Positions 10,580 to 49,840 of a stretch of DNA of 64,000 nucleotides are shown piece by piece. The DNA comes from Rhizobium leguminosarum. GTDB lineage: Bacteria; Pseudomonadota; Alphaproteobacteria; Rhizobiales; Rhizobiaceae. Below the pieces are notes generated by a model. That model did not search any database and had not been told where the DNA came from. It saw nothing but the letters and a program-made list of their open reading frames with translations. The translations under genes and the position numbers were made by a program. The stretch covers positions 1,576,501-1,640,500 of the forward strand of contig NZ_JAGIOR010000001.1 in NCBI RefSeq assembly GCF_017876795.1, written 5' to 3'. Every line of letters starts with the position of its first letter. Position 1 is the first letter of the stretch.

Positions 10580-10627
10580 CCATCTCTCCTCGTTCTGACA
10601 CGAGGGGGTCAGTTCTTCACTTCGTTA

Positions 10628-11559: not shown

Positions 11560-11596
11560 TTAGGGGGTCAGTTTCTCATTTCGCCTGACACGGTGA

Positions 11597-29023: not shown

Positions 29024-29027
29024 CTAG
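28683..29027 (+). CDS. IS5 passenger protein of unknown function
   Basis: A 114-aa acidic protein beginning MSAASNCRLIGRWRIVEADL, with DLVEPAAIAIGPNGRGEIAF and SFTWSGFDEMDEVSGDGHAE, likely a small beta-rich fold. It lies wholly inside the IS5 element, coupled to the transposase. The last codons (SSTAC) read through the right terminal repeat and the stop TAG is the last three bases of the CTAG target, so the element does not encode its own stop. Role unknown; proteins of this type occur widely as hypothetical proteins in proteobacteria. Confidence 0.8.
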   Translation: MSAASNCRLIGRWRIVEADLWDRDYLDLVEPAAIAIGPNGRGEIAFGAMQAGLDLGYGQSIVSFTWSGFDEMDEVSGDGHAEILEDGSIEITFTYHNGDEAILKAKPETSSTAC

Positions 29028-29054
29028 TCAAAAATGGGGTCCCACGGCTTTCGC

Positions 29055-29771
29055 TTATGCGGTTTGCAGGCGTGCGATTTCGTTCCACATCTGCATAGCT
29101 TCGGTTCTCAGTTCGCGGTGATGGTCTGATGAGATCTCGTGGCGTGGAATGTGAAAAAGGTTGGCAACAGGGTCATGAATTGAAGCAAAACGCTGGAGAT
29201 GTCGGGCTGACTTGAAGCCCTTCATGATCCGTTCTCGCCGCCGGGTCGGTTGATGAGAATTCTCAGCACGATTGTTCAATCCCTTGTGCGAGCGATGCTC
29301 GACACCTGGCATGATATCGCGTTTTGCGGCGCCATAGGACCGAAGTTTGTCGGTGATCATCACACGCGGTGAACGACCTTGCCCTTTCAGAAGCTTTCGC
29401 ATCAGACGCTTTGCAGCTTTGACATTTCGGCGGTTCTGGACCAGAACATCAAGGACGAAGCCGTCCTGATCGACGGCGCGCCAAAGCCAGTGTTTCTTGC
29501 CGCCAATGGAGATGACGACCTCATCAAGGTGCCATTTGTCGCCGAGCTTGCCGGTCGATCGCTTCCGGATATCGTTGGCAAAGTGCCCTCCGAATTTCTC
29601 AGCCCAGAGCCTCACGGTTTGGTGAGATACGATGACCCCACGCGCCGCCAGCATATCCTCGACCATGCGCAGACTGAGCGGAAACCGGAAATAAAGCCAA
29701 ACGGCATGTGCAATCACATCGGCTGGAAATCGGTGGCGACGATAAAGAGGATCACGGGCAAGTCGGGTCAT
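29055..29771 (-). CDS. IS6-family transposase (copy 3)
   Basis: Intact coding sequence of the same IS6 transposase as at 5398 and 9203, on the opposite strand. The element's right terminal repeat is disrupted by IS5, so the protein may act only on other copies. Confidence 0.92.
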   Translation of the reverse strand: MTRLARDPLYRRHRFPADVIAHAVWLYFRFPLSLRMVEDMLAARGVIVSHQTVRLWAEKFGGHFANDIRKRSTGKLGDKWHLDEVVISIGGKKHWLWRAVDQDGFVLDVLVQNRRNVKAAKRLMRKLLKGQGRSPRVMITDKLRSYGAAKRDIMPGVEHRSHKGLNNRAENSHQPTRRRERIMKGFKSARHLQRFASIHDPVANLFHIPRHEISSDHHRELRTEAMQMWNEIARLQTA

Positions 29772-29820
29772 GCCGCCAGATCCCACATTTTGCTCGACGC
29801 CCGGTTAACGTTACAGTGCC

Positions 29821-30718
29821 GTCATGACGGCCTTCCTTGTCAAGCTCTCGAACGCGTGGTTGAATAGCATATGACTTAGTAGACTATAAGGCGCAGACAT
29901 TTGCATGACGATGCCAGTCCATCCCAAATAAACCCTCGGCGATAGAAAAGAATTCCAGTTCACAATCCCACATTGTAACATCCGACAGGCATCAGCCGTT
30001 CAAAAAATTAGGCGGACACCTGGAAACGACCAATCTGCTAAACCTGCATCCACAGGCAAGGTGATCCAGGAAAGACGGCTTAGCGAACCGACGCTCCATT
30101 GGCTTTCGCCCGAAAGCGTCATCGGGAATAGTCTGATCACGGACGAGCTCTATGGGGTTTGCACCACCGATCCCGACGACCTGCTGAAGCGGACCCGTCA
30201 GAAAGGCCATGCCGTTCCCGCTGCTCACGAAGGAGAGACCGACGCTTCGTAACCGCTGTTCCACTCCCACCTTGCCCGTAGTCACCTGATCTGTGATCGG
30301 CTTTATGGATGAAGAACGGGAGTTTCTCCATGGAGACTTTTGAGGCGCCCGTATCATGCCCTTCGTTACGCTCGACTCCGGTGCGCCCGCGGCGGCGCTG
30401 CGTGGAACATCGCCAGGCAACGGTCAGTCGTCCCATTCGCTCCGGCCGCTGCCGACTGAGTTGCCCAAGGCGACGCGAACGTGGGCAGATCCGTGTTTTA
30501 AGGTATTTGCTTGCTAAGCAAGCTGGGCGCAGAGTTCGATCCCTTTCAAGGCGAACGCTCGCCTCTCAGTGGCAAGTGACTTCCAGAAGCGGCTGATGCA
30601 AATAGAACGATAGCCTTGGGCATGGCTCGGGGAAACCCTAAAAAGTGATCTCAACAAAAATAAAGGTCTTCTTAAAGTTGCGAAACGCCGCTAGTCTTCC
30701 CGCGAGAGGGAGGCAGCA
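29821..30718. other. ~900-bp interval without a convincing gene
   Basis: Short open frames exist on both strands (for example 30061-30252 plus, 29992-30420 minus), but none shows a recognisable domain or a good ribosome-binding site, and the two strands compete. The last ~100 bp before 30719 are AT-rich and end with GAGAGGGAGGCAGCA, a strong ribosome-binding site for the large helicase gene, so its promoter is presumably here. Confidence 0.4.
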
Positions 30719-33493
30719 ATGCAGATTTTCGAAAGTAATGGTACAGAGGAACAAGAAGCCGAAAAATCCGACAATCCTACCGTTGTTGTCGATGTTGCCG
30801 CCAGCTTCACCTACGCATCTTACCAAAATGCCATTCCGGTAATCCGCTCGATTCAGATTGAGAATAATACTGATAGGCACATTGAAAACTGCCGTCTCGA
30901 CCTGACGTCTTCGCCTTCGTTCCTAAGGCCGAAATCATGGATTGTTGATCGCCTGATGCCGGGCGATCGCCTTCCGCTGGTCGATCGGAAAGTCGAATTC
31001 GACGCCGCCTATCTCTCCGGCCTAAATGAGGCAGAGCGCGGTGAGATCACGCTACGTCTATCCAGGGGTGGAGAGATTCTGGACGAACGACGCCTTCCCG
31101 TCAGACTGCTTGCGCGAGACGAATGGGGAGGCGTTGCCGATATGGTGCAACTGCTGCCAGCCTTCGTCATGCCGAACGATCCGGGAGTTGCCCAAATCCT
31201 GCGGATGGCAGCGGAAAGGCTAGCTGCCCACGGTCAGCCAGGAGGATTGGACGGCTATCAGTCGCAGAATCCCCAGCGAGCCTACGTGCTCGCCGCAGCT
31301 ATCTATTCAGCCGTTGCCGGGATGGGGTTTCACTACGCAGAGCCGCCGGCAAGTTTTGAAAGTCGCGGCCAGAAGATTCGGCGTCCCAGCACAATTGCCG
31401 AGGAGCGCCTGGCGACCTGTCTTGATACTACCCTTCTTTTTGCCGCCGGGCTGGAAGCCGCCGGATTGCATCCGGTCGTCTTGATGTTCGATGGGCATGC
31501 GGCAGTTGGTGTATGGCTGTCCAAGAGAACCTTTGCCCATGCGATCGAGACGGATCATATGGAGGTCCGAAAGGCCCTGGCATCGCGCGAGTTGATAGTG
31601 TTTGAAACGACTGGCGTGACGCATCGTCCCGCCATGACCTTGGAAAGTGCACAGCGGGCCCTGGACAGCCGTCTCGGAGAAGGCGAAGCTCACGCATTCG
31701 TCGCGGCGATCGATGTCAGGCGATCGAGAAGCGGCGGGGTTATGCCACTCGCCTCACATGAGCCGATCCGGCGCAATGTCCTCGATGACGAAATGTCACC
31801 CGTCGCAGATTTGCCACTTCCCTCAGCCCCCAATTTCGGCGAGTTACCGGCTGATATCATCGAGGTCAGACCGACCACCGCCGCGGGCCGCATCGACCGC
31901 TGGCAGAAGAAGCTGTTGGATCTCACCCTTCGCAACCGGCTCCTCAACTTTCCGGAATCGAAGAAGACGATTCCATTTCTCTGCACTGACGTCGCCTTTC
32001 TCGAAGACCGACTCGCGAATGGCGCTGCAGTACGGATCATTTCGTTGCCCGAACAGAACCCGCTCGGCGAACGGGACGCGGCGCTCTATCGTGACGTGCA
32101 CGGCCGCGATCTTCAGCGCAATTTTGCTGCCGAAGCTCTACTGAGGGACGAACTCCCGTCGCCACTGGACACGCACCAGCTCGAGGCTCGGTTGATCGAC
32201 CTGTACAGGCAGGTCCGTAATGATTTTGCCGAGGGCGGAGCAAACACCCTCTTTCTTGCCGTCGGCTTCCTGCGGTGGAAGAAGAAACCGGAGGATGAGC
32301 GCAGCTATCGAGCCCCGCTTTTGTTGGTTCCGGTAAAGCTTGAGCGCCGCAGTGCCAGTTCGCGCTTTACGATCCGCTTTCATGAGGATGAGCCGCGCTT
32401 CAATGCCACTCTCTTGCAATTCCTGGAGCGGGATTTTGACCTGACGCTTCCCCAGTTCGGCGGCGATCTGCCGCTCGATGACAATGGGGTGGATGTACCG
32501 CGTCTTCTCGCGATGATGCGGCAGGCGGTCCGTGACGTGCCAGGTATGGAGGTTGTGGACGAGACAGCATTGTCGACCTTCTCCTTCGCGAAATTCCTCA
32601 TGTGGAAGGATCTCGTCGAACGCACCGAGGCGCTTCGCGAGAACCGGGTGGTCCGCCATCTGATCGATACGCCGGAGGAAGCTTTCCAAGCAGGCGGCGG
32701 ACAATCGGCGTTCCACGACGAGCGCGAACTCGATCATGCTTACGCGCCAGCGGACATCATTTGCCTTCTTCCGTCAGATTCATCCCAGACAGCGGCAAGC
32801 CTGGCGGCCGCTGAGGGCCGAGATTTCGTCATTGTCGGTCCTCCCGGTACGGGCAAGAGCCAGACCATCGCAAACATGATCGCGAACTGCCTCGCGGTGG
32901 GAAAAACGGTCCTGTTCGTCGCTGAAAAGACGGCCGCGCTCGACGTGGTCTATCGTCGATTACGCGCGCACGGCCTCGGCGATCACTGCATCGAATTGCA
33001 TTCGCACAAGGCTGATCGCCGTCATTTCCTTGGACAGCTCAAGGCAGCCTGGGAGCATGGCGGTCGGACCGATGCGTCGGAGTGGGTCGCGATCAACGAG
33101 CGACTTCGATTGCGCCGCGACGAGCTCAATGCCTACGTCGGAGCTTTGCACAATCGTTATCCAAACGGCTGGACCCCTTATCTGGCATTGGGCGTCGCGC
33201 TCCTGGCTGTCGACGCTCCGGCACCAACCTTGTCATGGTTGGAACGAGACGCTCATGACGCGCAGACGTTACGCGAGCTTGAAGACCTTGCGGGCGAGCT
33301 CGGCCTCGTTTTCGCATCGGTGGAGCGGCAGCCCGCACTGGACCTTGTGAGGGTTGGCGAATGGACTTCCGCCTGGCAGGATGGGTTGTTAGCGTCCGCA
33401 CAATCGTTGCAGAATGCGATCGATTTGTTGGCCAGCTCAATCGACGGGTATCTCGCGAGCATGAGCCTGAAGCCGCGGGAACGGTCGTCATAA
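30719..33493 (+). CDS. Hhe-like DUF4011/helicase protein, N-terminal part (ends at an in-frame TAA)
   Basis: The first 924 codons of a ~1993-codon frame. Order: a beta-rich N-terminal domain (~20-130); a transglutaminase-like region with Cys and His in RLATCLDTTLLFAAGL and FDGHAAVGVWL (~235-270); a DUF4011 domain starting RWQKKLLDLTLRNRLLNF (~395) through FLRWKKKPEDERSYRAPLLL; then a superfamily-1 helicase core with Walker A GPPGTGKSQT at ~707. The frame stops at TAA 33491-33493, but the same register continues with coherent sequence (VELQALEGLARALQKC) to 36700. This is the architecture of the single-protein Hhe anti-phage family. A GGGAGGCAGC site precedes the ATG. First gene of a three-gene operon. 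Confidence 0.85.
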   Translation: MQIFESNGTEEQEAEKSDNPTVVVDVAASFTYASYQNAIPVIRSIQIENNTDRHIENCRLDLTSSPSFLRPKSWIVDRLMPGDRLPLVDRKVEFDAAYLSGLNEAERGEITLRLSRGGEILDERRLPVRLLARDEWGGVADMVQLLPAFVMPNDPGVAQILRMAAERLAAHGQPGGLDGYQSQNPQRAYVLAAAIYSAVAGMGFHYAEPPASFESRGQKIRRPSTIAEERLATCLDTTLLFAAGLEAAGLHPVVLMFDGHAAVGVWLSKRTFAHAIETDHMEVRKALASRELIVFETTGVTHRPAMTLESAQRALDSRLGEGEAHAFVAAIDVRRSRSGGVMPLASHEPIRRNVLDDEMSPVADLPLPSAPNFGELPADIIEVRPTTAAGRIDRWQKKLLDLTLRNRLLNFPESKKTIPFLCTDVAFLEDRLANGAAVRIISLPEQNPLGERDAALYRDVHGRDLQRNFAAEALLRDELPSPLDTHQLEARLIDLYRQVRNDFAEGGANTLFLAVGFLRWKKKPEDERSYRAPLLLVPVKLERRSASSRFTIRFHEDEPRFNATLLQFLERDFDLTLPQFGGDLPLDDNGVDVPRLLAMMRQAVRDVPGMEVVDETALSTFSFAKFLMWKDLVERTEALRENRVVRHLIDTPEEAFQAGGGQSAFHDERELDHAYAPADIICLLPSDSSQTAASLAAAEGRDFVIVGPPGTGKSQTIANMIANCLAVGKTVLFVAEKTAALDVVYRRLRAHGLGDHCIELHSHKADRRHFLGQLKAAWEHGGRTDASEWVAINERLRLRRDELNAYVGALHNRYPNGWTPYLALGVALLAVDAPAPTLSWLERDAHDAQTLRELEDLAGELGLVFASVERQPALDLVRVGEWTSAWQDGLLASAQSLQNAIDLLASSIDGYLASMSLKPRERSS

Positions 33494-36400
33494 GTCGAAC
33501 TCCAAGCACTGGAAGGTCTAGCGCGAGCACTGCAGAAATGCCGAGGTCGCGACATCACGATCGCATTCGATCGTGACTTCGCGCGATGTGCCGAGGCACT
33601 GGAAAGTCTTCGAAATTCTATCGAGGCCTATCGCGAAGCAGAGCGCGGACTTGCAGCATCTTATGGAGCCTCCGCCGTCCGCGATCTCGATCCGGACGTG
33701 CTGGATCGCCAATGGCGAGAGGCGAGCGCTTCGTTTTGGCCAAACGCGATGCTCGGCAAGCGCAAGATTCAAAAGCTGCTGCAAAGCTATGCCGATAAAG
33801 GTACCGTGGAACCGGAGCAGGACCTTCCACTATTGCGCCGCATGAAGGATTGCCTGGCGGCGATCGACCAGAATCTGTTGAACGGAAAACCCTTGCCGAT
33901 ACATGGCCTGGGCACAGACGTCGGAGTGGTTGCCCAAACTTTGGAACTAGCGCGAGAGTTTCGTGCTACCATGCCGCTTCCGGGACGTGATCAGGAAGAG
34001 ATACGGTCGGCGCTCCGCATCATCGCACCATGTCTCCACGCAGTGGTTGAAATCGATGGCGTCCGGCAAGGGGGAGAAAGGCTTCTTGCCGCAGTCGAAG
34101 GCTTTAAGGAAGCGCGACAGCGCTTCAGCACGATTGCGGGGTGGGATCGCTCTGGTGAGAAAGACGTGGCCGACCTTGCGACGCTCAGGGACAAGCTTGA
34201 TGCACTCATCGGAGCACGACATCTGCTTCGCGATTGGTCGGCCTGGTGCCGGATCAGAAGCCGCGCAATGCACGCGAACCTGTCCTCTCTGGTCGAACAG
34301 ATTGAGACTGGGGTGATCCGGCCCGAGGAAGCGCGAGCTGCGTTTCGCCTCGGTTACGCGAGGTGGTGGCTTCCGAAGGTTCTGGACGCAGACCCTGTTC
34401 TGCGGAATTTCCGCCGTTTCCAGCACGAAAACGCAATCCGTGAATTTCGTGAAATCGATGATCTCGTTCGATCACACGCTACCTCACGTGTCGTCAGTGT
34501 GATTGCTCACGGGTTGCCGCCGGTTCAGAGCGTTCCACGGAATTCGGAACTCGGCCTCTTGCGCTACCAGATGGAGTTGCAACGGCCGAGCCAGTCAATA
34601 CGAGACATGATCGGCAAGATGCCGCAGAACTTTTCAAAGCTCGCACCCTGCATGCTTATGTCGCCGCTTTCCATTGCTCAATATCTTCCACCGAACCAGG
34701 CGTTGTTTGACGTTGTAATCTTCGATGAGGCGTCGCAGATCACCACTTGGGACGCTGTTGGCGCCATAGCGCGTGCGCGCCAGACCATCATCGTCGGGGA
34801 TCCGAAACAGTTGCCCCCGACTAACTTCTTCGGGCGCAACGAGGAAGAGGAGGACGTCGCCGATCACGAGAAGGATCTGGAGAGCATTCTTGACGAGGCG
34901 AAGGCGGCTGGTATTCCAGTCCGCGATTTAAGATGGCATTACCGCAGTCGAAGCGAATCTCTGATCGCTTTCTCCAACCACCACTACTACCAGAACCGTC
35001 TGGTGACGTTTCCGTCGCCTGCCGTCGAAGACCGCGCCGTGCATCTGCGCAAGGTACCTAACGGCATTTACGACCGTGGGAAAAGCAGAACCAACCGCAC
35101 CGAAGCAGAGGCAGTCGCGAAAGAAGCCGTTTCCCGAATGAAGGCGTGGCTGAAACTGCCTGAAAAAGATCGCCCGACGCTTGGGGTGATCACCTTTAAC
35201 GCGCAGCAGCAGTCCCTGATTCTCGATCTCCTGGATGCCGCGCGCCGAGACGATCCGGAGCTCGAGTGGTTCTTTGTCGAGGAACGGGTCGAGCCCACGA
35301 TCGTCAAGAACCTGGAGAACGTGCAGGGCGACGAGCGAGACGTCATCCTGTTTTCGATCACGTTCTGGAAGGACGCCGCTGGCAAGCTAACGATGGATTT
35401 CGGCGCGCTCAACCGGGACGGCGGCGAGCGGCGCCTCAATGTTGCTGTGACGCGTGCGCGCCAAGAACTCGTCGTCTTCTCGGGTTTCACGGCTGACCAG
35501 ATCGATCCTACCCGAACCAAGGCGGTCGCCGTACAGCATCTGAAGACATTCCTCGACTATGCCGAGCGTGGCGCGATCGCCCTGCCGGCCCAGGATATCG
35601 GTTCTGTCGGCGGTTTCGACTCCCCTTTCGAGGAGGCAGTTGCTGCACAATTGGAGCGGCACGGCTGGAGAGTCGTGCCGCAGGTCGGGATTTCCGGATT
35701 CCGGATCGATTTCGGTATCCGCCACCCGGATCTGGCAGGTACCTATCTGGCAGGCGTGGAGTGCGATGGCGCCACCTATCACGGATCGGCCACCGCCAGA
35801 GACCGCGACAAGGTCCGTGAACAGGTATTGAGGGGCCTTGGCTGGAATATACTGCGCGTCTGGTCGACCGATTGGTGGTTTGATGCGGCAGGCTGCGCCG
35901 AGCGGCTTCATGCCGGCCTCGAAGCCCTGTTGGAGGAGAGCAGGGCGCGTCGCGCTACCGAACTGGAGGACGCTGCGACCCATTGGGACATGGGACATGA
36001 GGTGGAGGGGATTGACGAAATTCGTGACGACGAAGCCGCCACTCCTGTCGAGCAGGCTATTTTGCCTCCAGAGACCGTCAAGACCGAACTCGTCTCTGTG
36101 GGGACGCCACTGTCCAGCGTGTCTGAGTCGGTCGAAATGCAACCACCTGCAGCTTCGGTTGGCGACGAAGCCTCGGATAAGCGGCGATACTGTGTCGCCG
36201 ATCTGTCCAGCTTCCGAGCCGATCCCGATCAGTTCTTCGAATTCGGCTATAGGGATACCCTGCGAGGTATGATCGAAGTGGTCATTGAAACCGAAAGCCC
36301 GTTACGCACAGACATACTAGCCCAGCGGCTATCTCGTGCGCACGGCTGGTTGCGGACCGGCGGACGAATCCGGGAGAGGATTGACCTTCATCTCCGCGGT

Positions 36401-36700
36401 CTCGACACGACCAAGGAATCGAGCGGCGAATTTGTCTGGAAGGTGGGGACCGTTTCCGAAATCATTCCGTATCGGCAACCAGCCAGCGAGGATGCACGCA
36501 GGTCGATCGCCGATATCCCGCTTGCGGAACTCGCTTTTGTGGTACTCGACAATCCCGACTTACTGGACCAGTTGGACCCCGCGCGGGATCTGGCTCGGCT
36601 GCTTGGTGTCGAGCGCCTCGCCGCTGTTTCCCGTGCGCGGCTCGACGAAGCGATTGCGAGGGCGCGGCAGCATATTTCAACCACTCATTCATTCGAGTAG
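33494..36700 (+). CDS. Hhe-like protein, C-terminal part: helicase motifs, Vsr/DUF559-like nuclease, DUF3320
   Basis: In frame with the preceding ORF after its TAA; an internal GTG at 33698 is the first start-like codon of a 1000-codon ORF. Numbered over the whole ~1993-aa protein, Walker B is VVIFDEASQITTWD (~1334), then GDPKQLPPTNFF, the motif III-VI region LENVQGDERDVILFS and NVAVTRARQELVVFS. A PD-(D/E)xK nuclease of the Vsr/DUF559 kind follows at ~1633-1725 (FDSPFEEAVAAQLERHGWRV, ISGFRIDFGI, AGVECDGATYH, GWNILRVWSTDWW), and a DUF3320 domain at ~1824-1885. Helicase and nuclease motifs look intact. Whether this half is made depends on read-through or re-initiation. Two bases separate it from the SbcD-like gene. 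Confidence 0.82.
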   Translation, partial: VELQALEGLARALQKCRGRDITIAFDRDFARCAEALESLRNSIEAYREAERGLAASYGASAVRDLDPDVLDRQWREASASFWPNAMLGKRKIQKLLQSYADKGTVEPEQDLPLLRRMKDCLAAIDQNLLNGKPLPIHGLGTDVGVVAQTLELAREFRATMPLPGRDQEEIRSALRIIAPCLHAVVEIDGVRQGGERLLAAVEGFKEARQRFSTIAGWDRSGEKDVADLATLRDKLDALIGARHLLRDWSAWCRIRSRAMHANLSSLVEQIETGVIRPEEARAAFRLGYARWWLPKVLDADPVLRNFRRFQHENAIREFREIDDLVRSHATSRVVSVIAHGLPPVQSVPRNSELGLLRYQMELQRPSQSIRDMIGKMPQNFSKLAPCMLMSPLSIAQYLPPNQALFDVVIFDEASQITTWDAVGAIARARQTIIVGDPKQLPPTNFFGRNEEEEDVADHEKDLESILDEAKAAGIPVRDLRWHYRSRSESLIAFSNHHYYQNRLVTFPSPAVEDRAVHLRKVPNGIYDRGKSRTNRTEAEAVAKEAVSRMKAWLKLPEKDRPTLGVITFNAQQQSLILDLLDAARRDDPELEWFFVEERVEPTIVKNLENVQGDERDVILFSITFWKDAAGKLTMDFGALNRDGGERRLNVAVTRARQELVVFSGFTADQIDPTRTKAVAVQHLKTFLDYAERGAIALPAQDIGSVGGFDSPFEEAVAAQLERHGWRVVPQVGISGFRIDFGIRHPDLAGTYLAGVECDGATYHGSATARDRDKVREQVLRGLGWNILRVWSTDWWFDAAGCAERLHAGLEALLEESRARRATELEDAATHWDMGHEVEGIDEIRDDEAATPVEQAILPPETVKTELVSVGTPLSSVSESVEMQPPAASVGDEASDKRRYCVADLSSFRADPDQFFEFGYRDTLRGMIEVVIETESPLRTDILAQRLSRAHGWLRTGGRIRERIDLHLRGLDTTKESSGEFVWKVGTVSEIIPYRQPASEDARRSIADIPLAELAFVVLDNPDLLDQLDPARDLARLLGVERLAAVSRARLDEAIARARQHISTTHSFE

Positions 36701-36702
36701 CC

Positions 36703-37827
36703 ATGTTCCGATTTATCCATTCAAGCGACCTCCATCTCGGCAAGCGCTTCGGCAATTTCTCGGGCGACTTGCCCAGTCGATTGCGCGAGGCAAGACACGC
36801 AGTTATCGCGCGGCTCGCTCAGCACGCTCGCGAGCAGGGCGCCACCACTATTCTGCTCGCGGGCGACACATTTGATACCGAAACGCCTGCGCCGAATGTG
36901 CGGAGACAGGCTCTCGCGGAGATGCGGAACCACGCGCCGATCCAATGGATAATTTTGCCTGGCAATCACGATTCACTGCAGGCAACGCAGCTTTGGACTA
37001 CGCTGAATGCGGAAGTGCCGGAAAATGTCGTGCTCGCGGTCGAGCCTCGGCCGATCGAGTTGGCGAGGGACGTCGTTCTATTGCCGGCCCCGTGCACCAC
37101 ACGCCGCCCTGGCCGGGATCTGACCGAATGGATGGACGGCGAAGCAACACCAGAGGGGGTGCTTCGTATCGGGCTCGCCCATGGCGCGATCCAGAGTTTC
37201 TCAGAAGAGGCAGTCGCCTCTGATGTTATCGCGGCGGATCGGGCACAGCGAGCCGGCCTTGACTATCTGGCGCTTGGCGATTGGCACGGCGCAATCGTGG
37301 TCGATCAGCGAACCCATTACAGCGGTACGCCTGAACCTGACCGTTTCAAACACCAACGTCCAGGCACCGCGCTGTTTGTGAGCATTGCCGGCCCCGCCGC
37401 CCAGCCCGAGGTAACGCCGTTGCCGACGGAGAGCTTTGCCTGGCGTAGGCTGGATCTCCACCTCCTCGAAAGTGACAATCCCGTGTCGGCCCTACAAGCG
37501 CTCCTGCCGGATTCCAGGCATCGAAGAATGACACTCGCCCGACTAGTGGCGACAGGCCGCAGTCGTGTGGCGGGGCGGGCGGCGTTGGCCCGTGCGACCG
37601 AGAGACTGTTGCCGGATTTCGCATTTCTCGAGTTGGATGACATGGGTGTTGTGACGGAGTGCGAGGTAGGAGACCTTGACCAGATAGATCGTGGAGGCGC
37701 GCTTCGCGAGGCCGCGAATGCGTTGCGCGCCGAGGCCGACGACGAGAGTCGTGCATCGACTGAGCGTGATATTGCCCGGGCGGCGCTGGTGCGCCTTTAT
37801 TCTTACACACAGGTGATCACACCATGA
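36703..37827 (+). CDS. SbcD/Mre11-like metallophosphoesterase
   Basis: A 374-aa calcineurin-like phosphoesterase of the DNA-repair nuclease type. All metal-binding motifs are visible in order: SSDLHLG (DxH), LLAGDTFD (GDxxD), LPGNHDS (GNHD), GLAHGAIQ and LALGDWHG (GDxH). In SbcCD/Mre11-Rad50 complexes this subunit cuts DNA ends and hairpins under control of the ATPase partner. It starts 2 bp after the helicase stop and overlaps the ATPase gene by 4 bp (ATGA). It is probably a dedicated paralogue rather than the housekeeping SbcD, given the neighbours and mobile context (inference). Confidence 0.9.
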   Translation: MFRFIHSSDLHLGKRFGNFSGDLPSRLREARHAVIARLAQHAREQGATTILLAGDTFDTETPAPNVRRQALAEMRNHAPIQWIILPGNHDSLQATQLWTTLNAEVPENVVLAVEPRPIELARDVVLLPAPCTTRRPGRDLTEWMDGEATPEGVLRIGLAHGAIQSFSEEAVASDVIAADRAQRAGLDYLALGDWHGAIVVDQRTHYSGTPEPDRFKHQRPGTALFVSIAGPAAQPEVTPLPTESFAWRRLDLHLLESDNPVSALQALLPDSRHRRMTLARLVATGRSRVAGRAALARATERLLPDFAFLELDDMGVVTECEVGDLDQIDRGGALREAANALRAEADDESRASTERDIARAALVRLYSYTQVITP

Positions 37828-40454
37828 AGATCTCGGCACTACGCTTGTTCAACGTGAAGCGATTTGCTGGTCGCGGTGTTGCCATTGACGGTATTAGCGA
37901 CGGCGTTAATGTGCTTTGCGCTGCCAACGAGTTTGGCAAGTCGACCAGCTTCGAAGCGCTGCACGCACTCTTTTTCCAACCACATTCTGGCACTCCGACC
38001 GATGTTCAACGGTTGCGGCCCTACAGTGGTGGCAATCCGCTGCTCGAAGCCGACATCTCTACTGCGGAGGGCCGTTTTCGAATTACCAAGCAATACTACG
38101 GCGACCGATCTGCACGTGTTACCGATCTGGAGAGCGGTCGGCTATTGGCTCAGGCGGACGAGGCTGAGAACTTTATTGCCAGCTTGATCAGAGGGGGTAC
38201 CGCCGGGCCAGCCGGTCTCCTTTGGGTGCGCCAGGGCATCACTGGGATCGAAAAACGAACTCGTTCAGAGGAGGATGGTGAAAAGCAGGTCCGACAGAGC
38301 TTGCTGGAATCCGTGCAGGGAGAGGTTGAGGCCGTTACAGGGGGGCGCCGAATGGCCGAGATCATGGCCGCCGCGAGAGATGCCCTTTCGGAGATGGTCA
38401 CTTCCACTGGAAGACCGAAGAGTGGTGGACGCTACGCCGCCGCGATCGAGGAGCGCGATAAGCTCGCCGCGGACGAGGAGACACTTTTAAACGAAGTCAC
38501 TGTTCTGCGCGAGGCGTTGAACAAGCGGACGAATGCAGCAAAGCGGCTTGGCGAACTCGACAGTGCCGAGGATAGGGCAGAGCGGCGAAAGGCAATCGAG
38601 AAGGCGCAGGCTAATTTTGACGCTGCGAAGGCGCATAGCGAGAAGGTGAAGACGGCCGAAGCGGAACTAAATCTCGCTCGCGAACGGCGGAACGGTGCGG
38701 AGCGGGAACTCAAGACGTTCCTGGCAGCCCTTGAAAAGGAAAAGGCACTGCAGGAGAGGCTTGTTGCAGCCGAGAGGCGCCGTGCCGATGCCTTGATTAA
38801 GCGCCGCGAGGCCGTTGAAGCAATCGAAAAGGCTCGTGAGGACGTAGATGCCGCCGAGACGGAGGAGCAGGAGGTACGAGACCGGCTTTCCCGCTTGGAT
38901 GCGGCATTGAGGGCGCGTGAGGCAGCCGAACGCTTAACGCAATTGAAGGAACAACTTGCCCAGTCGGAGGCGGTCCGCCAGGCTCTCGAAGAGGGCGAAG
39001 CGCAACTCTCACTTCTGAAGATACCTCCGAATGCCATCGATGAGCTTCAAACCCTGGAAGTCGAAATTGCGAAGCTCCGCGCCGTCGATGAGGCCGCTCG
39101 ACCTTCACTTGCGATTAACTACAGCAAGGATGCGGCAGGCCTTGTGACCATGAACGGCACGCCGTTGACCGACGGGGAAGAGCGCACCTACGATGGTCAA
39201 GCGCAGCTGGAAGTGCCGGGATTTGGCACGATTACGGTACGCTCAAACCACCAGGCTGGGAGCGACAACCGCCTCAAGCAGGCTGAAGCGAAGCGGAGCA
39301 CGCTCCTTGCATCAATGGGTGTTGACAGCCTGGCTACGGCGCGGGCGCGGCAGGTCAGCGCGCAGCAGGTTGACGCTGACCTGCGTGAGCGGCGGGCTCG
39401 GCTGTCGCTTCTCGCGCCGGAGGGACTGTCCAAGCTTCGACAGAATGTTGCCGCGGATGAGTTGATCAGCGCCGAGACGGTCGAATTGAAAGAGGATCCC
39501 ACGCTGGTCCGGGCAGCGCTTGTCGAAGCCGAAGAGCGGCGCAAGAAGACGCGGCAGGCCTTGCGGGAGGTAGAGCCCCAACAGGCACGAGCCGACGAAG
39601 CCTTCGTCGCAGCAGAGACGGCGTTGGCCACGTTGATGGCCGAACAAGCCCAGCTCGAAGCGATCCTAGGTTCAGAAGAAGCTCGGGTTGGACGCACGCA
39701 GGCTTTGTCGAATACATTGGCTGACCTTGACGTAGCGCTCTCCACGGCCGAAACGCATATTGAGAAGCTCGGCTCTGCCGCGATCGATCTGGACGCGGTC
39801 GAGGCCGCACTGAAGCGCGCGCTTTCAATCGAGCAGGCAACCGATAGGGAGATCAACGCGCTACGCGAGATCATGGCCGGCCTGAACGCCGAGATCCGTG
39901 CGCAGTCAGACGAGGCGGTGGAAGAGAAATGGCGTGAGGCCGCCGAAGCTTATTCTGCCGCGAAGGCGCGCGCCGAGGCGTTCGAGAAGGAAGTAGCTGT
40001 TCTACAGCGGCTGACTGTAGCATTGGAGACTGCCCGGTCCGAAGCCCGCGAACTTTATCTCAAGCCCGTCATGGCAGAGCTGGGGCCGCTTCTAAGGCTC
40101 CTCTTCGACGACGTTTCGATTACCTTCGACGAGAAGACGCTTCTGCCGCAGACTATTCTGCGCAACGGACAGGAAGAGGAGGTCGATCGCCTGAGTGGAG
40201 GAATGCGGGAGCAGCTCTCTGTACTGACACGACTTGCCTTTGCGAGGCTGCTTGCGCGCGACGGTCGGCCGGCGCCGGTTATCCTTGACGACGCGCTCGT
40301 CTATTCGGATGACGATCGCATTGAGAAGATGTTTGACGCACTCCATCGACAGTCGAGAGATCAGCAGATCATCGTTTTTTCCTGTCGCCAACGGGCTTTT
40401 CAGAAGCTCGGGGGAAACATACTCCACATGTCAGAGTGGCAGCCGAGCCTTTGA
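37824..40454 (+). CDS. SbcC/Rad50/SMC-like ATPase without zinc hook
   Basis: An 876-aa ABC-type ATPase with split head domains. The N-terminal Walker A is AANEFGKST (~32-40); long Glu/Ala/Arg-rich coiled coil occupies about residues 190-400 and 480-755; the C-terminal head has signature LSGGMREQLSVL (~788) and Walker B APVILDDALVYSDD (~815). No CxxC zinc-hook motif lies at the coil apex; a short globular insert (SLAINYSKDAAGLVTMNGTP) sits there instead, unlike canonical SbcC/Rad50. Expected to pair with the SbcD-like phosphoesterase. Last gene of the operon; about 240 bp of non-coding sequence separate it from an IS110 end. Confidence 0.88.
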   Translation: MKISALRLFNVKRFAGRGVAIDGISDGVNVLCAANEFGKSTSFEALHALFFQPHSGTPTDVQRLRPYSGGNPLLEADISTAEGRFRITKQYYGDRSARVTDLESGRLLAQADEAENFIASLIRGGTAGPAGLLWVRQGITGIEKRTRSEEDGEKQVRQSLLESVQGEVEAVTGGRRMAEIMAAARDALSEMVTSTGRPKSGGRYAAAIEERDKLAADEETLLNEVTVLREALNKRTNAAKRLGELDSAEDRAERRKAIEKAQANFDAAKAHSEKVKTAEAELNLARERRNGAERELKTFLAALEKEKALQERLVAAERRRADALIKRREAVEAIEKAREDVDAAETEEQEVRDRLSRLDAALRAREAAERLTQLKEQLAQSEAVRQALEEGEAQLSLLKIPPNAIDELQTLEVEIAKLRAVDEAARPSLAINYSKDAAGLVTMNGTPLTDGEERTYDGQAQLEVPGFGTITVRSNHQAGSDNRLKQAEAKRSTLLASMGVDSLATARARQVSAQQVDADLRERRARLSLLAPEGLSKLRQNVAADELISAETVELKEDPTLVRAALVEAEERRKKTRQALREVEPQQARADEAFVAAETALATLMAEQAQLEAILGSEEARVGRTQALSNTLADLDVALSTAETHIEKLGSAAIDLDAVEAALKRALSIEQATDREINALREIMAGLNAEIRAQSDEAVEEKWREAAEAYSAAKARAEAFEKEVAVLQRLTVALETARSEARELYLKPVMAELGPLLRLLFDDVSITFDEKTLLPQTILRNGQEEEVDRLSGGMREQLSVLTRLAFARLLARDGRPAPVILDDALVYSDDDRIEKMFDALHRQSRDQQIIVFSCRQRAFQKLGGNILHMSEWQPSL

Positions 40455-41753
40455 TCAGCAGCTCTGATTTATGGAATGAAAACAATGCTTCGTTGGCGAC
40501 GCGGTATGTTAAGCATCTGACTAAATTTGCTTATTAGGACTTTCTGGCCTCGGAGCGCTTCTGGTTCGAATCCTTTCACATCAGGACTTTTGTCAATTGT
40601 TCATTCGAATGGCATCGAATTTCTCCTTGGTGGGCGGATCCACGGTCTGAGCCCATAGCAATTACCGGCCCGTCCTCGGGCCTATACAACCTCATATGTG
40701 GAACGGCCCGCGGTGCAAGGGGCTTCTCACCCGATTTATCCACGCGGACGATGCGTTCATATGTACGGCCTTTGAATGCGGCACATGACCACTGGCCTCG
40801 ATGAGATCCGCGGAACGAGGAGCTAAATCACATCCACGCACTTTGAAGTGCACTGAGGTTGACGGCTTCGTTCGTCCGGATTTCGTCCCATGGGTTCATC
40901 GTTTGCTTTGGCACCTTGCATCTGCCGGCCGACGCCGGTCAGATCAGTTCTATCGGTTCACTACTCCTCAGGCCTGCGCATTCGAGGTTAGATCTGATGA
41001 ATCGTAGATCCCGCCCTTGGTGAGTAGTGCCCAGATGATCCGAGCCATTTTATTAGCTAACGCGACCGCAGCCACTTTGAATGGCGCCTGGCAAGTAGCG
41101 CTTTCAGCCAAGGCCGTGCCTTCTCACTTCTGCGCGCGATCCGCAGAACTGAGGTTGCTCCGAGGACGAGAAGAACACGGAGCTCAGGATTGCCCATTTT
41201 AGAGATCCTGCCCAATCGTTCTTTGCCCCCGCTGGAGTGAGGCCTAGGGGTAAGTCCCATCCAAGCGGCGAAGTGGCGACCGGACTTAAATCCACCGGGA
41301 TCCGGGACCACGGCTTTAATCGTCGTTGCCGTAATGGCACCCACGCCTGGGATCGTTGTCAGCCGACGCGCGGTCTCATCGCGCTTTGCTTCGATAACGA
41401 TAGTGCGTTCGATCATTTCAATCTGAACAGCCAAGGCGTCGATCTGATCTACGATGGCCGTGAGGGCGAAGCGTGCTGACGTCGGTAGTCGGGTGTCTTC
41501 GACATCTCGAACAATATCTATCAGGGCAGCGACATTAGGAATGCCCCCGGCTGCGATGATGCCCAATTCCGCCAAATGCGCTCTTAAGGCATTTACCGAC
41601 TGCGTCCTTTGTTGCACGAGCAGAGCGCGGGTCTTCATCACCATGGCATCTGCTTGCTGGTCCGAACTCTTTATGGGGACAAAGCGCATGGTCTTGCGGA
41701 TCACCGCCTCACTGATTGCCTCCGCATCGGCGGCGTCCGTCTTCCCACGTTTA

Positions 41754-41814
41754 ACTAATCGTCAGGTCCCCATAATGCGGAGGAACGCTGCCTGATCGGC
41801 GGATTTTCGCCGTT
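41754..41814 (+). repeat. RIT left terminal inverted repeat (61 bp)
   Basis: Perfect inverted match to 45508-45568. It contains ATAATGCGGAGGAACGCTGC and GGCGGATTTTCGCC, the latter itself partly palindromic. Confidence 0.9.
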
Positions 41815-41887
41815 TTCGGCTCGGCTTGCTTTGCATTAATCGGTGCCGAACCCTCTGCAGGTCAATCGACCAACAGAGGACTTGCCA

Positions 41888-43117
41888 ATGCCCGATAGCA
41901 GTCACGAACTAATTGCCACACTCAATTCCTCGCTTGTCAGTCAGCGATACAGCCCGGTCGTGGCGAGGAACTACTGCGCCTACGCATCTGAGTTTCTCGA
42001 TTATCTGGGGCAGCGCGGTATCTCGATCGCGGACGTGATCGACGTGCAGGTAGAGCAATACCTGCTGCACGCGATCGTAAGGTTCGAAAAGCAACGTGGC
42101 CGACGTCCCAGCGCGCGCTGGCACGAGGTCCCGCGCTCCGGAATTCATGCTCTGTTGCGGCTAGCTCACGGTCATTGGCCGCCAGCTATCGAGCCTACCT
42201 GCGCGGCCGATGTGGCCCGATTTGCAATTTGCGACGCATACGAAAGCTGGCTGCGTGAGGAACGCGGGTTGGCTCGCTCCAGCGTCGCAGCGTTAATGTG
42301 GGAAGCCCGGAACTTCCTTGCGTGGCAGATCGATCATGGAAGCGGCAGCTTGGCGGGGCCGAGCGTCGTTGACGTAGACCGTTATATGGATATGCGCGCA
42401 CCGAAACTGACGCGCTGCTCGCTGAAGTCTGTCGCAGAGCGACTTCGCTCGCTGCTGCGTTATCTCCACATCACGGGTCGCGTTACAACGGACCTGTCAG
42501 GGCATGTCATAGCGCCGATGCTTTATGCGTACGAAGGCGTACCATCAGTCCTGAACCGCGACCAGATAGTCGCTGTGCTGGAGCGCGCGAAGAAGGACAA
42601 GACATCGGCGGGGCTGCGGGACCATGCGATCCTGCAACTCCTTGCAACATATGGGCTCCGGTCTGGAGAAATCCGCAATCTGCGGATCGAGGACATCGAC
42701 TGGCGCACGGGAGCCATCCATGTTCGCCACCACAAGACGCGAGCCAGCACATCGCTGCCCCTGATGGAGCCGGTCGGCGAAGCCGTGCTTGCTTATCTGC
42801 GTTTCGGGCGACCCATGACGGACGCCAGGGAAATCTTCCTCCGCACACGCGCGCCGTACCGCAAGCTCGACAAGCTTTACAGCCTGGTTCGCCGGCGACT
42901 CCGTGACGCTGGCGTTCAACCGACTGGTAAGTGTGGACCCCATATCTTCCGTCATGCGCGCGCGGTTGAGATGTTGCGGGTCGCGGTGCCCCAAAAGGTC
43001 ATCGGCGACGTGCTGGGGCACCGTTCGACAGGATCGACGGCTCCCTACCTCAAACTCGCCACCGAGGACCTCAGGGCCATTGCGCTTGACGTGCCGGGGA
43101 TGGAGGTGCTGGCATGA
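41888..43117 (+). CDS. RIT tyrosine recombinase A
   Basis: About 409 aa with an N-terminal SAM-like core-binding domain and C-terminal catalytic domain. Catalytic residues: Arg in YGLRSGEIRNL, HxxR in HIFRHARA, His in LGHRST and the Tyr nucleophile in TAPYLKLA. The ATG at 41888 (MPDSSHELIA) was chosen because an AGAGGA site precedes it; the frame extends back to 41843. The stop overlaps the next start by 4 bp. Confidence 0.9.
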   Translation: MPDSSHELIATLNSSLVSQRYSPVVARNYCAYASEFLDYLGQRGISIADVIDVQVEQYLLHAIVRFEKQRGRRPSARWHEVPRSGIHALLRLAHGHWPPAIEPTCAADVARFAICDAYESWLREERGLARSSVAALMWEARNFLAWQIDHGSGSLAGPSVVDVDRYMDMRAPKLTRCSLKSVAERLRSLLRYLHITGRVTTDLSGHVIAPMLYAYEGVPSVLNRDQIVAVLERAKKDKTSAGLRDHAILQLLATYGLRSGEIRNLRIEDIDWRTGAIHVRHHKTRASTSLPLMEPVGEAVLAYLRFGRPMTDAREIFLRTRAPYRKLDKLYSLVRRRLRDAGVQPTGKCGPHIFRHARAVEMLRVAVPQKVIGDVLGHRSTGSTAPYLKLATEDLRAIALDVPGMEVLA

Positions 43118-44481
43118 CCGCCCGCTGGCCCGATCCCGACCGCGCGATCATTGGCCGCCATGTCGCGAGCCTTAATCTGCGCAGCATGAAAAGCCGAGCT
43201 TGCTATCGGCAAGTCTTGCATGGCTTCCAGGATGTCGCTGAACGTTACGATGCACTCGGCCAGGAAGTGTTGCTGGCCTGGCTACGAGAATCAGGCGTTC
43301 GCCGAGCGCCGTCCACGCTCTTGCACCGCACCCGCATCATTGACCGATTCCTCGAACGCCTGATGGAAATCGGCGCGATCGAATGCAATCCCGTCGTCGC
43401 TCTGCGCGATGAGTGCAATATCAAGCAGTGCATGCCGATCTGGCGGGCATTGGCGTCGCGGGACCCGGAACAGGCTCTTGCCGAACTGCGCCAACCCAAG
43501 CCGTTCGGCAGCATGCTGGGCGAAATGATGGCCGAGCATGTCGCGATGATGCGGCGCAGAGGATACAAATACACTTCGCAGCCCCTGTTGCTCTTGCGGT
43601 TCGATCGGTTCCTGCAGTTGCATCCGGGACCGCAAACCGAACCGCTGAGCGCCATGATCGATCGATGGGCAGAAACGAATGTGACGCGTCAGCATGCGGA
43701 AGAATGCGAAAAGCTCAAGCGCGTCTTTGCGAAAATCCTTCGTCACCGCGACCCGTCGACACCTGTGCGGCGACCGGACCCGAGGCCGAGGAAGGAGGCC
43801 GCCAAGCAATGGCGAAAGCCTCATATCTACTCGCCTGCCGATGTGCGGCGGATGCTCGAGGTTGCCCGCACCTATCCGTCTCCACGGGTGCCACTTCGGC
43901 CGCTGAGCATGTACACGATGCTGCTGCTCGCCTATTGCGCAGGCTTGCGGCGTGGCGAGATTGCCCGCCTCGATCTTGGTGATGTTGACCTGCAGGACGG
44001 TACGATAATCATCCGGCAGACCAAGTTCTTCAAGACCCGGATCCTACCGTTACCCGACAGCGTTGTGGTCGAGCTTCGGGCCTACATCGATGCGCGGCGG
44101 CGTGCCGGTGGATCACAGGATACGCGCTCCGGTCTGTTCTGGCACGAGCGAGGCGACGGCCATTACACGCCGGAAATGATTACATGGCTGCTCGCCGACG
44201 TCATACGCCGCGCCGGGTTGAAGCCATTGCGAGGAAAAACGGGCCCTCGCGTTCATGATCTGCGCCACTCGATGGTCGTGAACAGGATCCTCGAATGGTA
44301 CCGGACGGGCATCAATCCACAGGATCGCTTGCCGTTCCTCGCGACCTACCTTGGCCATCGGGATATCAACTCCACCCTGGTCTACATCACCGTCACGCAG
44401 GACCTGCTGCATTACGCAAATGAACGGTTCCGGGCGATTGGCGCGCCGTGCCTCAGCCTGGGGCAGGAGATGCGGCCATGA
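43114..44481 (+). CDS. RIT tyrosine recombinase B
   Basis: 455 aa, the middle and longest recombinase. Catalytic residues: Arg in AGLRRGEIARLDLG, Lys region RQTKFFKTRILPLP, HxxR in HDLRHSMV, His in LGHRDINST and Tyr in LVYITVT. Coupled to A and C by ATGA overlaps, indicating one transcript and probably a heteromeric recombinase. Confidence 0.9.
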   Translation: MTARWPDPDRAIIGRHVASLNLRSMKSRACYRQVLHGFQDVAERYDALGQEVLLAWLRESGVRRAPSTLLHRTRIIDRFLERLMEIGAIECNPVVALRDECNIKQCMPIWRALASRDPEQALAELRQPKPFGSMLGEMMAEHVAMMRRRGYKYTSQPLLLLRFDRFLQLHPGPQTEPLSAMIDRWAETNVTRQHAEECEKLKRVFAKILRHRDPSTPVRRPDPRPRKEAAKQWRKPHIYSPADVRRMLEVARTYPSPRVPLRPLSMYTMLLLAYCAGLRRGEIARLDLGDVDLQDGTIIIRQTKFFKTRILPLPDSVVVELRAYIDARRRAGGSQDTRSGLFWHERGDGHYTPEMITWLLADVIRRAGLKPLRGKTGPRVHDLRHSMVVNRILEWYRTGINPQDRLPFLATYLGHRDINSTLVYITVTQDLLHYANERFRAIGAPCLSLGQEMRP

Positions 44482-45482
44482 GCAGGGTTGACCGGTTCCC
44501 GGACCTGATGCGCGCGTTCTTCTACGAATGGCTGGTCGAGCAGCGCAACGCGTCTATCCATACGGTTCGATCATATCGCGATACCTGGCGGTTGTTGCTT
44601 CGGTTCGTCGCCCAGCGGACTGGAAAGAAGGTGGCTATGATCACGCTGGCCGATCTCGGCGCCAGCGAGGTCGCCGCGTTCCTCAGTCACACCGAACATG
44701 ACCGTGGCGGTACGATCGGCACGCGCAACTGCCGGCTTGCCGCGATCCGCAGCTTCTTCCACTTCGTCGCCACCAGGGATCCCGGATCGATCGCGCAATG
44801 CGTGGAAATCCTCAACATACCGATCAAGCGCGCTCCGGTGTCGGAACCGAGCTATCTGGATCCGGCGGAAGTGACGGCGATCCTCGCTCAGCCAGACCGT
44901 TCGACCGTTGAGGGCATGCGCGATCATGCGCTGCTCTCGTTCCTCTACAACAGCGGTGCACGAATACAGGAAGCGCTCGACCTGTGCCCCGAAGCAATCC
45001 GGTTCGAAAGCCCGAACTGCGTGCGTCTGACCGGCAAGGGCCGGAAGGAACGAATCTGCCCGCTCTGGCCGGAAACCGTCATGTTGCTGAAGAAACTGCT
45101 TGAGCGACAACCCCGGGCACCCGACCAGCGGCTGTTCGTCAACCGCTATGGCGAGCCTCTCAGCGCCTCGGGGGTCCGCTTCAAGCTCGTCGCCTACGTG
45201 AGGGCAGCGGCCAATACCATGCCAACGCTGCGGGCCAAGCAAGTAACGCCACACGCCTTCCGGCACGCCACCGCCGTGCACCTCATCTCGGCCGGCGTCG
45301 ACGTTACGGTGATCCGCAGCTGGCTCGGTCATGTCAGCCTCGACACGACCAACCACTATGCCAGGGCCAATCTGGAAACGAAGCGGAAAGCCCTGGAAAA
45401 GGTCACCGTTCCAGCCATACCCGGCGGCCAGCCATCCTGGAAGCGCGATGCAAGCGTGCTCGCCTGGCTCGACACACTCTGA
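44478..45482 (+). CDS. RIT tyrosine recombinase C
   Basis: About 334 aa from ATG 44478 (MSRVDRFPDLMRAFFYEWL), chosen because it overlaps the stop of B by 4 bp. XerC/D-like. Catalytic residues: Arg in SGARIQEALDL, Lys in LTGKGRKERICPLW, HxxR in HAFRHATA, His in LGHVSLD and Tyr in TNHYARAN. The stop lies 25 bp before the right terminal repeat. Confidence 0.9.
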   Translation: MSRVDRFPDLMRAFFYEWLVEQRNASIHTVRSYRDTWRLLLRFVAQRTGKKVAMITLADLGASEVAAFLSHTEHDRGGTIGTRNCRLAAIRSFFHFVATRDPGSIAQCVEILNIPIKRAPVSEPSYLDPAEVTAILAQPDRSTVEGMRDHALLSFLYNSGARIQEALDLCPEAIRFESPNCVRLTGKGRKERICPLWPETVMLLKKLLERQPRAPDQRLFVNRYGEPLSASGVRFKLVAYVRAAANTMPTLRAKQVTPHAFRHATAVHLISAGVDVTVIRSWLGHVSLDTTNHYARANLETKRKALEKVTVPAIPGGQPSWKRDASVLAWLDTL

Positions 45483-45507
45483 AATAATGCGGAGGAATAT
45501 GGACAAG

Positions 45508-45568
45508 AACGGCGAAAATCCGCCGATCAGGCAGCGTTCCTCCGCATTATGGGGACCTGACGATTAGT
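45508..45568 (-). repeat. RIT right terminal inverted repeat (61 bp)
   Basis: Perfect inverted match to 41754-41814. Confidence 0.9.
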
Positions 45569-47253
45569 GAAGTTATGCTCACCTCGCCATAACTTTACGA
45601 AAGGTTTGACGTAAGCCGGTGGGATCAGGCGCACATCATGACCAAATCGGGCAATCTCTCTCGCCCAATAATGAGCGCCACCGCATGCCTCCATGCCAAC
45701 TAGGCACGGAGGTATCCTTTCGAAGAATCGCAGTACTTCGGTCCGACGAAGTTTTCGATTGAACAAAGGCAAGCCTTCAGCGTCGGCTCCGTGTACTTGG
45801 AAGATGTGTTTGGCTAAATCCAACCCGATTGTGCTAGCTTGCTTCATGGAACGGTCCCTCCTTTGTGGCGTTCAAGCAACGACCACGTTTTAGCACTAGA
45901 TGCTGTCGGAGCGGGCCGTTCCACCTCATCACATCCGGTCGCCGCACTTGGCGGCTGCACCATTATCCCGCTTTCGACGGGCACGGGCTCAGGAGAACGG
46001 GGCTAAACTCAAGGTCGGCGTTTAAAGCCAAAAGGATTCCCGGTCCGTTCACCTGGATCCGTCAGGACTGATTGGGCCCTGAGGATTAGTGTTCTGATTA
46101 GGAGCTGTGCCTGCGCTTCAGGCGTTTTTCATGATCGCACCTTCGATTACGACGCCGGAGCTCACGTACTTCCAAAGTGCGACCAGTAATTTACGCGCCA
46201 GCGCCACGATCATCGGCGTTTTAAGTCGGCCGGCGTTACGTGCAATGCGCTCCTTGAACCATAACGTTAACGCCGATTTCGGTTGGTGCCGCAGCCATAG
46301 CCAGGCGAGTTCGACCATTGTCGCTCGCAAACGCGGATTTCCCGCTTTCGAGACACCTTGTTCGCGATTGACGTTGCCGCTTTGCCACGGGGAGGGCGCC
46401 AGGCCCGCGTAAGAGGCAACTTGCCGCCGATTATCGAAGTGTCTGAACAAACCTTCCGTGTAGAGTATCGTCGCGAACTCGGGACCAATTCCTCTGACCT
46501 TCAAAAGCGCGACCGCTCTTGCCGGCGTTTCCGGTGTCTCGCGGACGATCAAGGTATCTCGCTCTGCTTCCACGGCCTTGATTTGCGTTAGCAGTAATTC
46601 GAGACGATCGAGTTCTCTGCAAATTTCGGCTTTGAGATGCTTGGACAGAACCCTGCCATCTCCAGTTCGAAGCTCGTCCAGACGCTGGCGGCGATCTCGA
46701 CGTAGAGGCTCGTAATCTCGTACACCTTGGGCGAAGAGTAGCCCTTTGATGCGATTGACGTGGAAGACACGTTCCGCAATCAGGGTTTTCCGCTCCCGCC
46801 CGAGCCTGCGGATGTCTTCCTCATCCGGCGTGAGCAGCTTGACCATCGAGCAGGCACGCGGCTCGCCACGTTTCCATGCCATTAGAGCGCGGATTAAGGT
46901 TTCGCCGTCGATGCGATCCGTCTTTGCCCGGCGATGGCGGCGGGGCATGGCAATGGATGCGGCCTCGACAATATGGCTTTCGATCCAGGCTTCCTTGCTG
47001 AGCACCCGCCCCAACCAGAAGCCATCAAGCCCGACCTCGTGAATGACCACCAGCGGATAAAGCCTGTTCTTGCGCCGCTGACCTTTCTGGCGAAGTGCGG
47101 CAAAACACGAAAACAGGCCAGCGATGTCACCTCCGGAAACCGTATGGCGCGACATCTTCTCGCTTCCAGGCGACAACGCTGTCACCAGCCATGCCGATTT
47201 ACTGAGACCGTATGTTCTCGGGGTGAAGGCGGCTCACCCTCGCCGTAAGCTGA

Positions 47254-48185: not shown

Positions 48186-48246
48186 TGAGATCGGGGGTTG
48201 CTTCGGAGTGGCCGAAGCCGAGCCCCAAGCTTAGCGAGGATGAACC

Positions 48247-49365: not shown

Positions 49366-49840
49366 CCAACCACCCCCCATATCGCGCATTACAAAGAGGA
49401 GACAAGATCGATCATCTGCTGATGCTCAATGTTGGAGGCAGGGCCCCGGTCGGGGAATCTTCGATGGAACTGAGTGGCCGACTACGTCGATGCCCGTGCT
49501 AAGATAGAAGCAGCCCCAGGCGTACACACGGAAATGCGGTATCCAACCCGCGTATAAGAGTTTGCAAACCGTCGTCTTGAGGTCCTGTCTCCTACATTGC
49601 GCATTAGCTACACTATGCAGGACCAGCCATTGTTGGCGGGATGAGCAGTCATGGCCACGCCGCTTGCAAATGAACATAAGAGAGTTCCAACGAGACGAAA
49701 ATTGCTCCAAGATCAAGAGGGGTAGCGGTCTGTGCTTGAGTTTGATCTGCTGTCATCGGCATGATTGGCCTCCAGAGAGTTTTCTAGCGACCTCACTCTG
49801 CCACGGTGCAGGCCGCTACTCACCCTTGATGGGATCTCAA

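Follow-up and report, generated by a model that had tools for sequence, protein, structure and literature searches.

Within a 64,000-nucleotide stretch of Rhizobium leguminosarum DNA (contig NZ_JAGIOR010000001.1, positions 1,576,501 to 1,640,500; hereafter the window), a very large helicase-nuclease gene is directly followed by genes for an SbcD/Mre11-like phosphoesterase (P0001) and an SbcC/Rad50-like ATPase (P0002). Do the three act as one system, or do they only share a neighbourhood? A sequence-only reading had described a three-gene operon in which an Hhe-like helicase-nuclease has a dedicated SbcD/SbcC-like pair; the operon was confirmed in part, and what stands of its interpretation is a recurring helicase-nuclease joined to a Mre11/Rad50-type pair, whereas neither "Hhe-like" nor "dedicated" does. 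Read through one in-frame stop, the first gene scores 2171 bits against the NCBIfam family "anti-phage protein ProA" (NF058533; cut-off 1500), to which it belongs over its full length. Sequence comparison and gene neighbourhoods incline us, with moderate confidence, to the view that this ProA (PDC-S37) helicase-nuclease would be coupled to a Mre11/Rad50-type DNA-end nuclease complex in a composite defence against invading DNA.

The surroundings of ProA were scanned at 103 loci, comprising the window, class-sample loci, plasmid loci and the best 80 of at least 577 confirmed genome-contig matches, which are biased towards near relatives. A ProA row for the tree was obtained from 100 of these; L083, L135 and L162 gave none, the matches at the latter two being lost through the choice of open reading frames (ORFs), and the gene-only contigs L026 and L029 lie outside the tree. 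Among ORFs up to 7 kb away, phosphoesterases formed the commonest cluster (21 loci), followed by SbcC (16), generic ABC-transporter ATPases (13) and YhaN (7). Nearly all linked loci are contained in one mainly alphaproteobacterial ProA clade of 33 rows, from which L096 and L151 were set aside as uninformative because of contig ends. A Mre11/Rad50-type pair, a part of one or a remnant stands beside ProA in 26 of the 31 informative clade loci, in varying orders and strands: short SbcDC like that of the window in 16 (14 pairs, some cut by insertion sequence (IS) elements or contig ends, and two remnants only), an AAA_27-type pair, YhaO-YhaN, in eight, and hook-bearing SbcCD (CPVC in SbcC) in two (L136 and L098). 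Counted by clade lineages within 5 kb, with three near-identical sets merged (the near-identical rows being window/L075/L076/L077, L081/L089 and L090/L103/L170), phosphoesterases were found 13 times, SbcC nine and YhaN six times, with an IS21 transposase next at four. Partners were searched by tblastn independently of ORFs, using short SbcD/SbcC, YhaO/YhaN and the SbcCD of L136 and L098 as seeds, a search that might overlook very distant pairs. The view is restricted to about 2 kb downstream at L128, ends inside SbcC at L091 and L092, and leaves YhaN out of sight at L114, where YhaO runs to the contig end; L058 sits on a long branch and its placement in the clade is unsure.

Three different pair families stand beside ProA, an observation absent from the sequence-only reading. 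On a tree of 38 rows (36 with a state, five of these outgroup) the partner state changes six times and presence versus absence four times. Nested inside the short-SbcDC group (SH-like approximate likelihood-ratio test 96) are three loci from Mesorhizobium that carry divergent YhaN-YhaO, and the linked YhaN genes occupy three places among 13 rows (three changes), the Bosea one beside an unlinked gene. A functional need would be expected to leave just such a trace, with one pair exchanged for another family of its kind beside a retained ProA, and the repeated pairing of ProA with one of three pair versions suggests that the parts work together. Because three different families seem to fill the role beside one ProA clade, the partner would be a functional module and not a fixed subunit. 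We propose, tentatively and with less than even confidence, that this clade needs some DNA-end nuclease complex, though no particular one, and that a single slot has been filled by hookless short SbcDC, YhaO-YhaN or hook-bearing SbcCD.

In the composite defence, ProA would recognise foreign DNA and unwind or nick it, and the SbcDC-like complex would degrade the foreign DNA from the resulting ends or from blocked intermediates; within one ProA clade this second activity is seemingly supplied by the three Mre11/Rad50-type families. Escherichia coli Mre11-Rad50 is itself reported to defend against phages, with TelN as the countermeasure, and to cut free, blocked and hairpin DNA ends (PMC12624138), and Lamassu includes a Rad50-like protein (PMC10586767).

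Copies of the operon were found well beyond the window. All three genes are present on plasmids of Rhizobium sp. Pop5 and R. phaseoli at a DNA identity of 92-94%, as well as in Mesorhizobium loti 582 and Mesorhizobium sp. 131-3-5, and the Rhizobium operon copies keep a gene spacing of +2/-4 bp. An IS21 element terminates SbcC in Rhizobium sp. C104 and splits it in Sinorhizobium alkalisoli, while R. rhizogenes and R. leguminosarum TpK retain merely pair fragments behind ProA, which is broken as well in TpK. In support of the sequence-only interpretation, the three genes are seen together again across several genera, some copies being plasmid-borne and some close to further defence genes. These neighbours are IetA-IetS in Pop5, BilD with a UvrD-type helicase in R. 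phaseoli, GajA in R. leguminosarum TpK, PDC-S06 in Mesorhizobium amorphae and PDC-S46 at L099 and L136, and they differ between loci (IetAS, BilD, GajA, SLATT).

Several results weigh against a coupling of ProA to the pair. In five of the 31 informative clade loci (L055, L058, L110, L128 and L130) tblastn revealed no pair, and outside the clade only two of 67 ProA rows have one, several of these rows being short-flanked and the search being liable to miss very distant pairs; the two are L142, where the pair is convergent with ProA, and L099, where it lies about 3.7 kb upstream. In the class sample 11 of 289 genomes exceed the ProA cut-off; of nine ProA loci read (neighbourhoods of G033 and G162 left out), two were gene-only contigs and two of the other seven are linked, the window and G266. 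The family sample contains eight of 199 genomes over the cut-off, plus G377 with ProA in pieces, and two of five loci read are linked, the window and G377 (G330, G412, G445 and G396 left out). Since linked loci are a minority in these evenly drawn samples, the linkage is a feature of one ProA clade and not of ProA generally. The pairs inspected in Rhizobiaceae mostly lack an accompanying ProA. A close SbcD occurs in 14 of the 199 family genomes and ProA adjoins it in two, with ten of the 14 neighbourhoods read and G316, G415, G301 and G404 judged by their absent or weak ProA match. The ProA-linked SbcDs do not form one clade either, and a special clade of them was rejected (seven changes over 31 rows; approximately unbiased test, p 1e-35; long branches meet in this tree), which, together with the rarity of ProA beside close SbcDs, leaves the claim of a dedicated pair unsupported. 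At L136 and L098 SbcD is over its cut-off and SbcC reaches 249 and 248 bits, under the TIGR00618 cut-off of 478.5, so that the label "canonical" for these SbcCDs rests on SbcD and the hook. Finally, the ProA copy of the window is broken.

Much of this would also be accounted for if ProA were a complete single-gene defence and the pairs were separate defence or repair modules inhabiting the same islands. The 65 rows outside the clade and the five clade loci without a nearby pair speak for such neighbourliness, as do the pairs that lie without ProA on Rhizobium plasmids or beside other defence genes, and the PDC-S37 label is presumably that of a single-gene candidate. The other island genes vary, however, whereas a pair or its trace adjoins ProA in most of the informative clade loci; the tight spacing in the Rhizobium copies and the presence of further Mre11/Rad50-type families beside ProA in other branches likewise count against it, and we regard it as serious but rather unlikely. 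Quite improbable in our judgement is a role of the pair in immunity or clean-up, shielding the host or repairing damage by the ProA nuclease instead of attacking the invader. The processing of free, blocked and hairpin ends by Mre11-Rad50 (PMC12624138) would suit this role, an intact pair adjoins a broken ProA in the window, and ProA-free pairs are common; yet many lineages have ProA and no nearby pair, so that tolerance does not in general depend on one. A further explanation concerns the window strain only and is no competitor to the general one: there is about an even chance that this strain carries a decaying remnant, with ProA dead and the pair kept for ordinary DNA-end repair. The in-frame stop and its duplicate described below point that way, and the pair may serve repair in a host without a TIGR00618 SbcC match; selection on the genes argues against decay, and a remnant leaves the linkage in other genomes unexplained.

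ProA is uninterrupted at L075 and L076, and 11 of 12 aligned relatives are stop-free, the twelfth, L055, having its own in-frame stop six alignment columns off; on the strength of the 11 stop-free relatives, neither recoding at the window stop nor a conserved split there was accepted. ProA lies in more than one frame at 10 of the 100 ProA loci (the window, L055, L060, L080, L082, L104, L114, L121, L124 and L152), which could include assembly errors. The second ProA match in the host is a 2,015-bp piece on contig C2 (within G000:C2:692691-695783, L003), 100% identical to window 31821-33835 with the identical stop, so a second intact ProA was discarded; one end of the piece is marked by an IS copy, the transposase element at window 22324-23402. 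Compared with the Pop5 and R. phaseoli plasmid copies, the ratio of nonsynonymous to synonymous substitutions is 0.08-0.16 for both ProA halves and the pair; the operon genes are under purifying selection, a signal that may predate the stop. With ProA interrupted, the system probably does not work in the window strain, barring readthrough of the stop or separate action of the two halves. The host genome has no TIGR00618 (SbcC) match and no SbcD above the TIGR00619 cut-off, and its YhaO/YhaN-type pair lies on another contig; the pair is therefore distinct from a chromosomal sbcDC, and an orthologue of that kind was ruled out.

As the family assignment of the first gene shows, ProA is already catalogued in NCBIfam and PADLOC. 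Taken singly, its halves score 1042 and 1112 bits to NF058533, each under the cut-off of 1500, and the best PADLOC model for them is PDC-S37 (375 and 806 bits), with Hhe behind (168 and 372). Hhe is a single-gene system, and gene 1 resembles it in DUF4011, the superfamily 1 (SF1) helicase, the Vsr-type nuclease and DUF3320, the architecture that the sequence-only reading gave for Hhe; its halves reach 237 and 544 bits where the NF042953 cut-off is 2000, so that Hhe as the family is ruled out and is, by these scores, a relative only. The giant proteins of MTES_1575 type share a transglutaminase-like region, SF1 helicase, Vsr restriction endonuclease and winged helix-turn-helix, the last overlapping DUF3320, and also bear HEPN, as far as the accessible part of PMC3710099 goes, which does not mention a Mre11/Rad50 pair; no HEPN family was detected in gene 1 by a Pfam scan at E 0.001. 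At L245, L246, L247 and L055 the ProA proteins measure about 1750-1770 residues, their NF058533 match ends near position 1731 of 1903, the DUF3320 end is apparently missing, and no pair was found in the stretches read there. These short proteins hint that the ProA C-terminus may couple ProA to the pair.

The pair itself was compared with known families. P0001 has the metal motifs DLHLG (I), GDTFD (II), GNHD (III) and LAH (IV), and motif V reads GDWH; the protein reaches 58.6 bits to SbcD TIGR00619, under the cut-off of 77.65, and phage records contain merely six weak matches to it, with at most 30% identity. P0002 has a Rad50-type ABC head and a long coiled coil, and the CxxC zinc hook of SbcCD/Mre11-Rad50 is found neither in it nor in seven short-family relatives; its predicted model places strands near residues 428-473 between two helical arms. 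Its sole NCBIfam match is Rad50 PRK03918, at 46.9 bits against a curated cut-off of 700. YhaO-YhaN is likewise a two-gene Mre11/Rad50-like unit, but three linked YhaN-type proteins score 221-232 bits to AAA_27 (PF13514, cut-off 22), in contrast to 22.6 for P0002. Lamassu has an LmuA effector and LmuB in one operon; P0002 reaches merely 26 bits to LmuB (34 to mad3), and at E 0.001 the other operon proteins gave no Lmu match, LmuA included. Promoter and terminator matches were no more frequent than in shuffles (2 vs 3.2 and 8 vs 10.4).

The new part is the association of ProA with Mre11/Rad50-type pairs. The partner pair is unnamed in the NCBIfam or PADLOC models matching the operon proteins, and no ProB or ProC NCBIfam model matched the pair proteins scanned. 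A system named Prometheus is reported by DefenseFinder in PMC12629846, PMC12390725, PMC12846349, PMC13356809, PMC12447246 and PMC13101515, the accessible parts of which did not yield its composition; going by the name only, ProA perhaps belongs to it. In the literature searched, PDC-S37 was not mentioned and no ProA/DUF4011 protein with an SbcDC pair was recognised; since this search did not extend to supplements, preprints or the majority of subscription journals, it does not prove absence. If the composite defence is real, a helicase-nuclease family seemingly catalogued as a single-gene defence has a second half in many Alphaproteobacteria, absent from the NCBIfam and PADLOC models seen, and complexes of the Mre11/Rad50 type would serve anti-DNA immunity as interchangeable components, not repair alone. 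Should the same-slot idea hold, such pairs would be general interchangeable executioner modules of prokaryotic defence, also in DUF4297-HerA and other systems. The natural replacement of pair for pair makes the dependence of ProA on its partner directly testable by swaps.

Features of the operon, in window coordinates
Feature	Position	Strand	Remarks
ProA-type gene, broken	30719..36700	+	NCBIfam NF058533, PADLOC PDC-S37; one in-frame stop
N-terminal beta-sandwich domain, ProA residues 17-132	30767..31114	+	
Transglutaminase-like region, ProA residues 139-332	31133..31714	+	Cys234, His260, Glu296 nearly invariant
DUF4011 in ProA	31910..32425	+	157 bits
AAA_11, N-terminal (Walker A) part of ProA SF1 helicase	32777..32968	+	
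In-frame TAA in ProA	33491..33493	+	
AAA_11/AAA_12, C-terminal parts of ProA SF1 helicase	34697..35479	+	
MTES_1575 (Vsr-type) endonuclease domain of ProA	35627..35914	+	119 bits
DUF3320 at ProA end	36227..36376	+	
P0001, SbcD/Mre11-like phosphoesterase	36703..37827	+	motif V GDWH
P0002, SbcC/Rad50-like ATPase	37824..40454	+	without CxxC hook

Other associations were met in the surroundings of ProA and of the pairs. On two plasmids, one from Burkholderia and one from Sphingobium (L176 6880-13722 and L178 6838-13678, respectively), distant short SbcD-SbcC pairs immediately precede the defence genes DUF4297 and HerA. ATPases of PDC-S06 or PDC-S46 recur adjoining ProA or Mre11/Rad50-type pairs (L081 17938-20583, L089 15956-18598, assigned through similarity to L081 alone, L099 6351-8540, L136 21683-23851 and L068 10404-12716). 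A third recurrent partner of ProA among such AAA_13-type or similar ATPases (L081, L089, L099, L136) was dismissed, the cases being too few and from two families.

The window is rich in transposases, and three recombinase genes lie just downstream of the operon. These adjacent tyrosine recombinase genes (41843-45482) occupy window 41751-45571, 1.3 kb downstream of the operon, between 64-bp inverted ends of 98% identity, and resemble a recombinase-in-trio (RIT) element. Three 99.7%-identical element copies stand at window 5349-6145, 9153-9950 and 29024-29821, with an IS240-type DDE transposase recognised by Pfam in the one copy scanned, and two repeat pairs connect 48185-49681 with 58114-59610 (100%, inverted) and 10627-11563 with 47253-48189 (99.9%).
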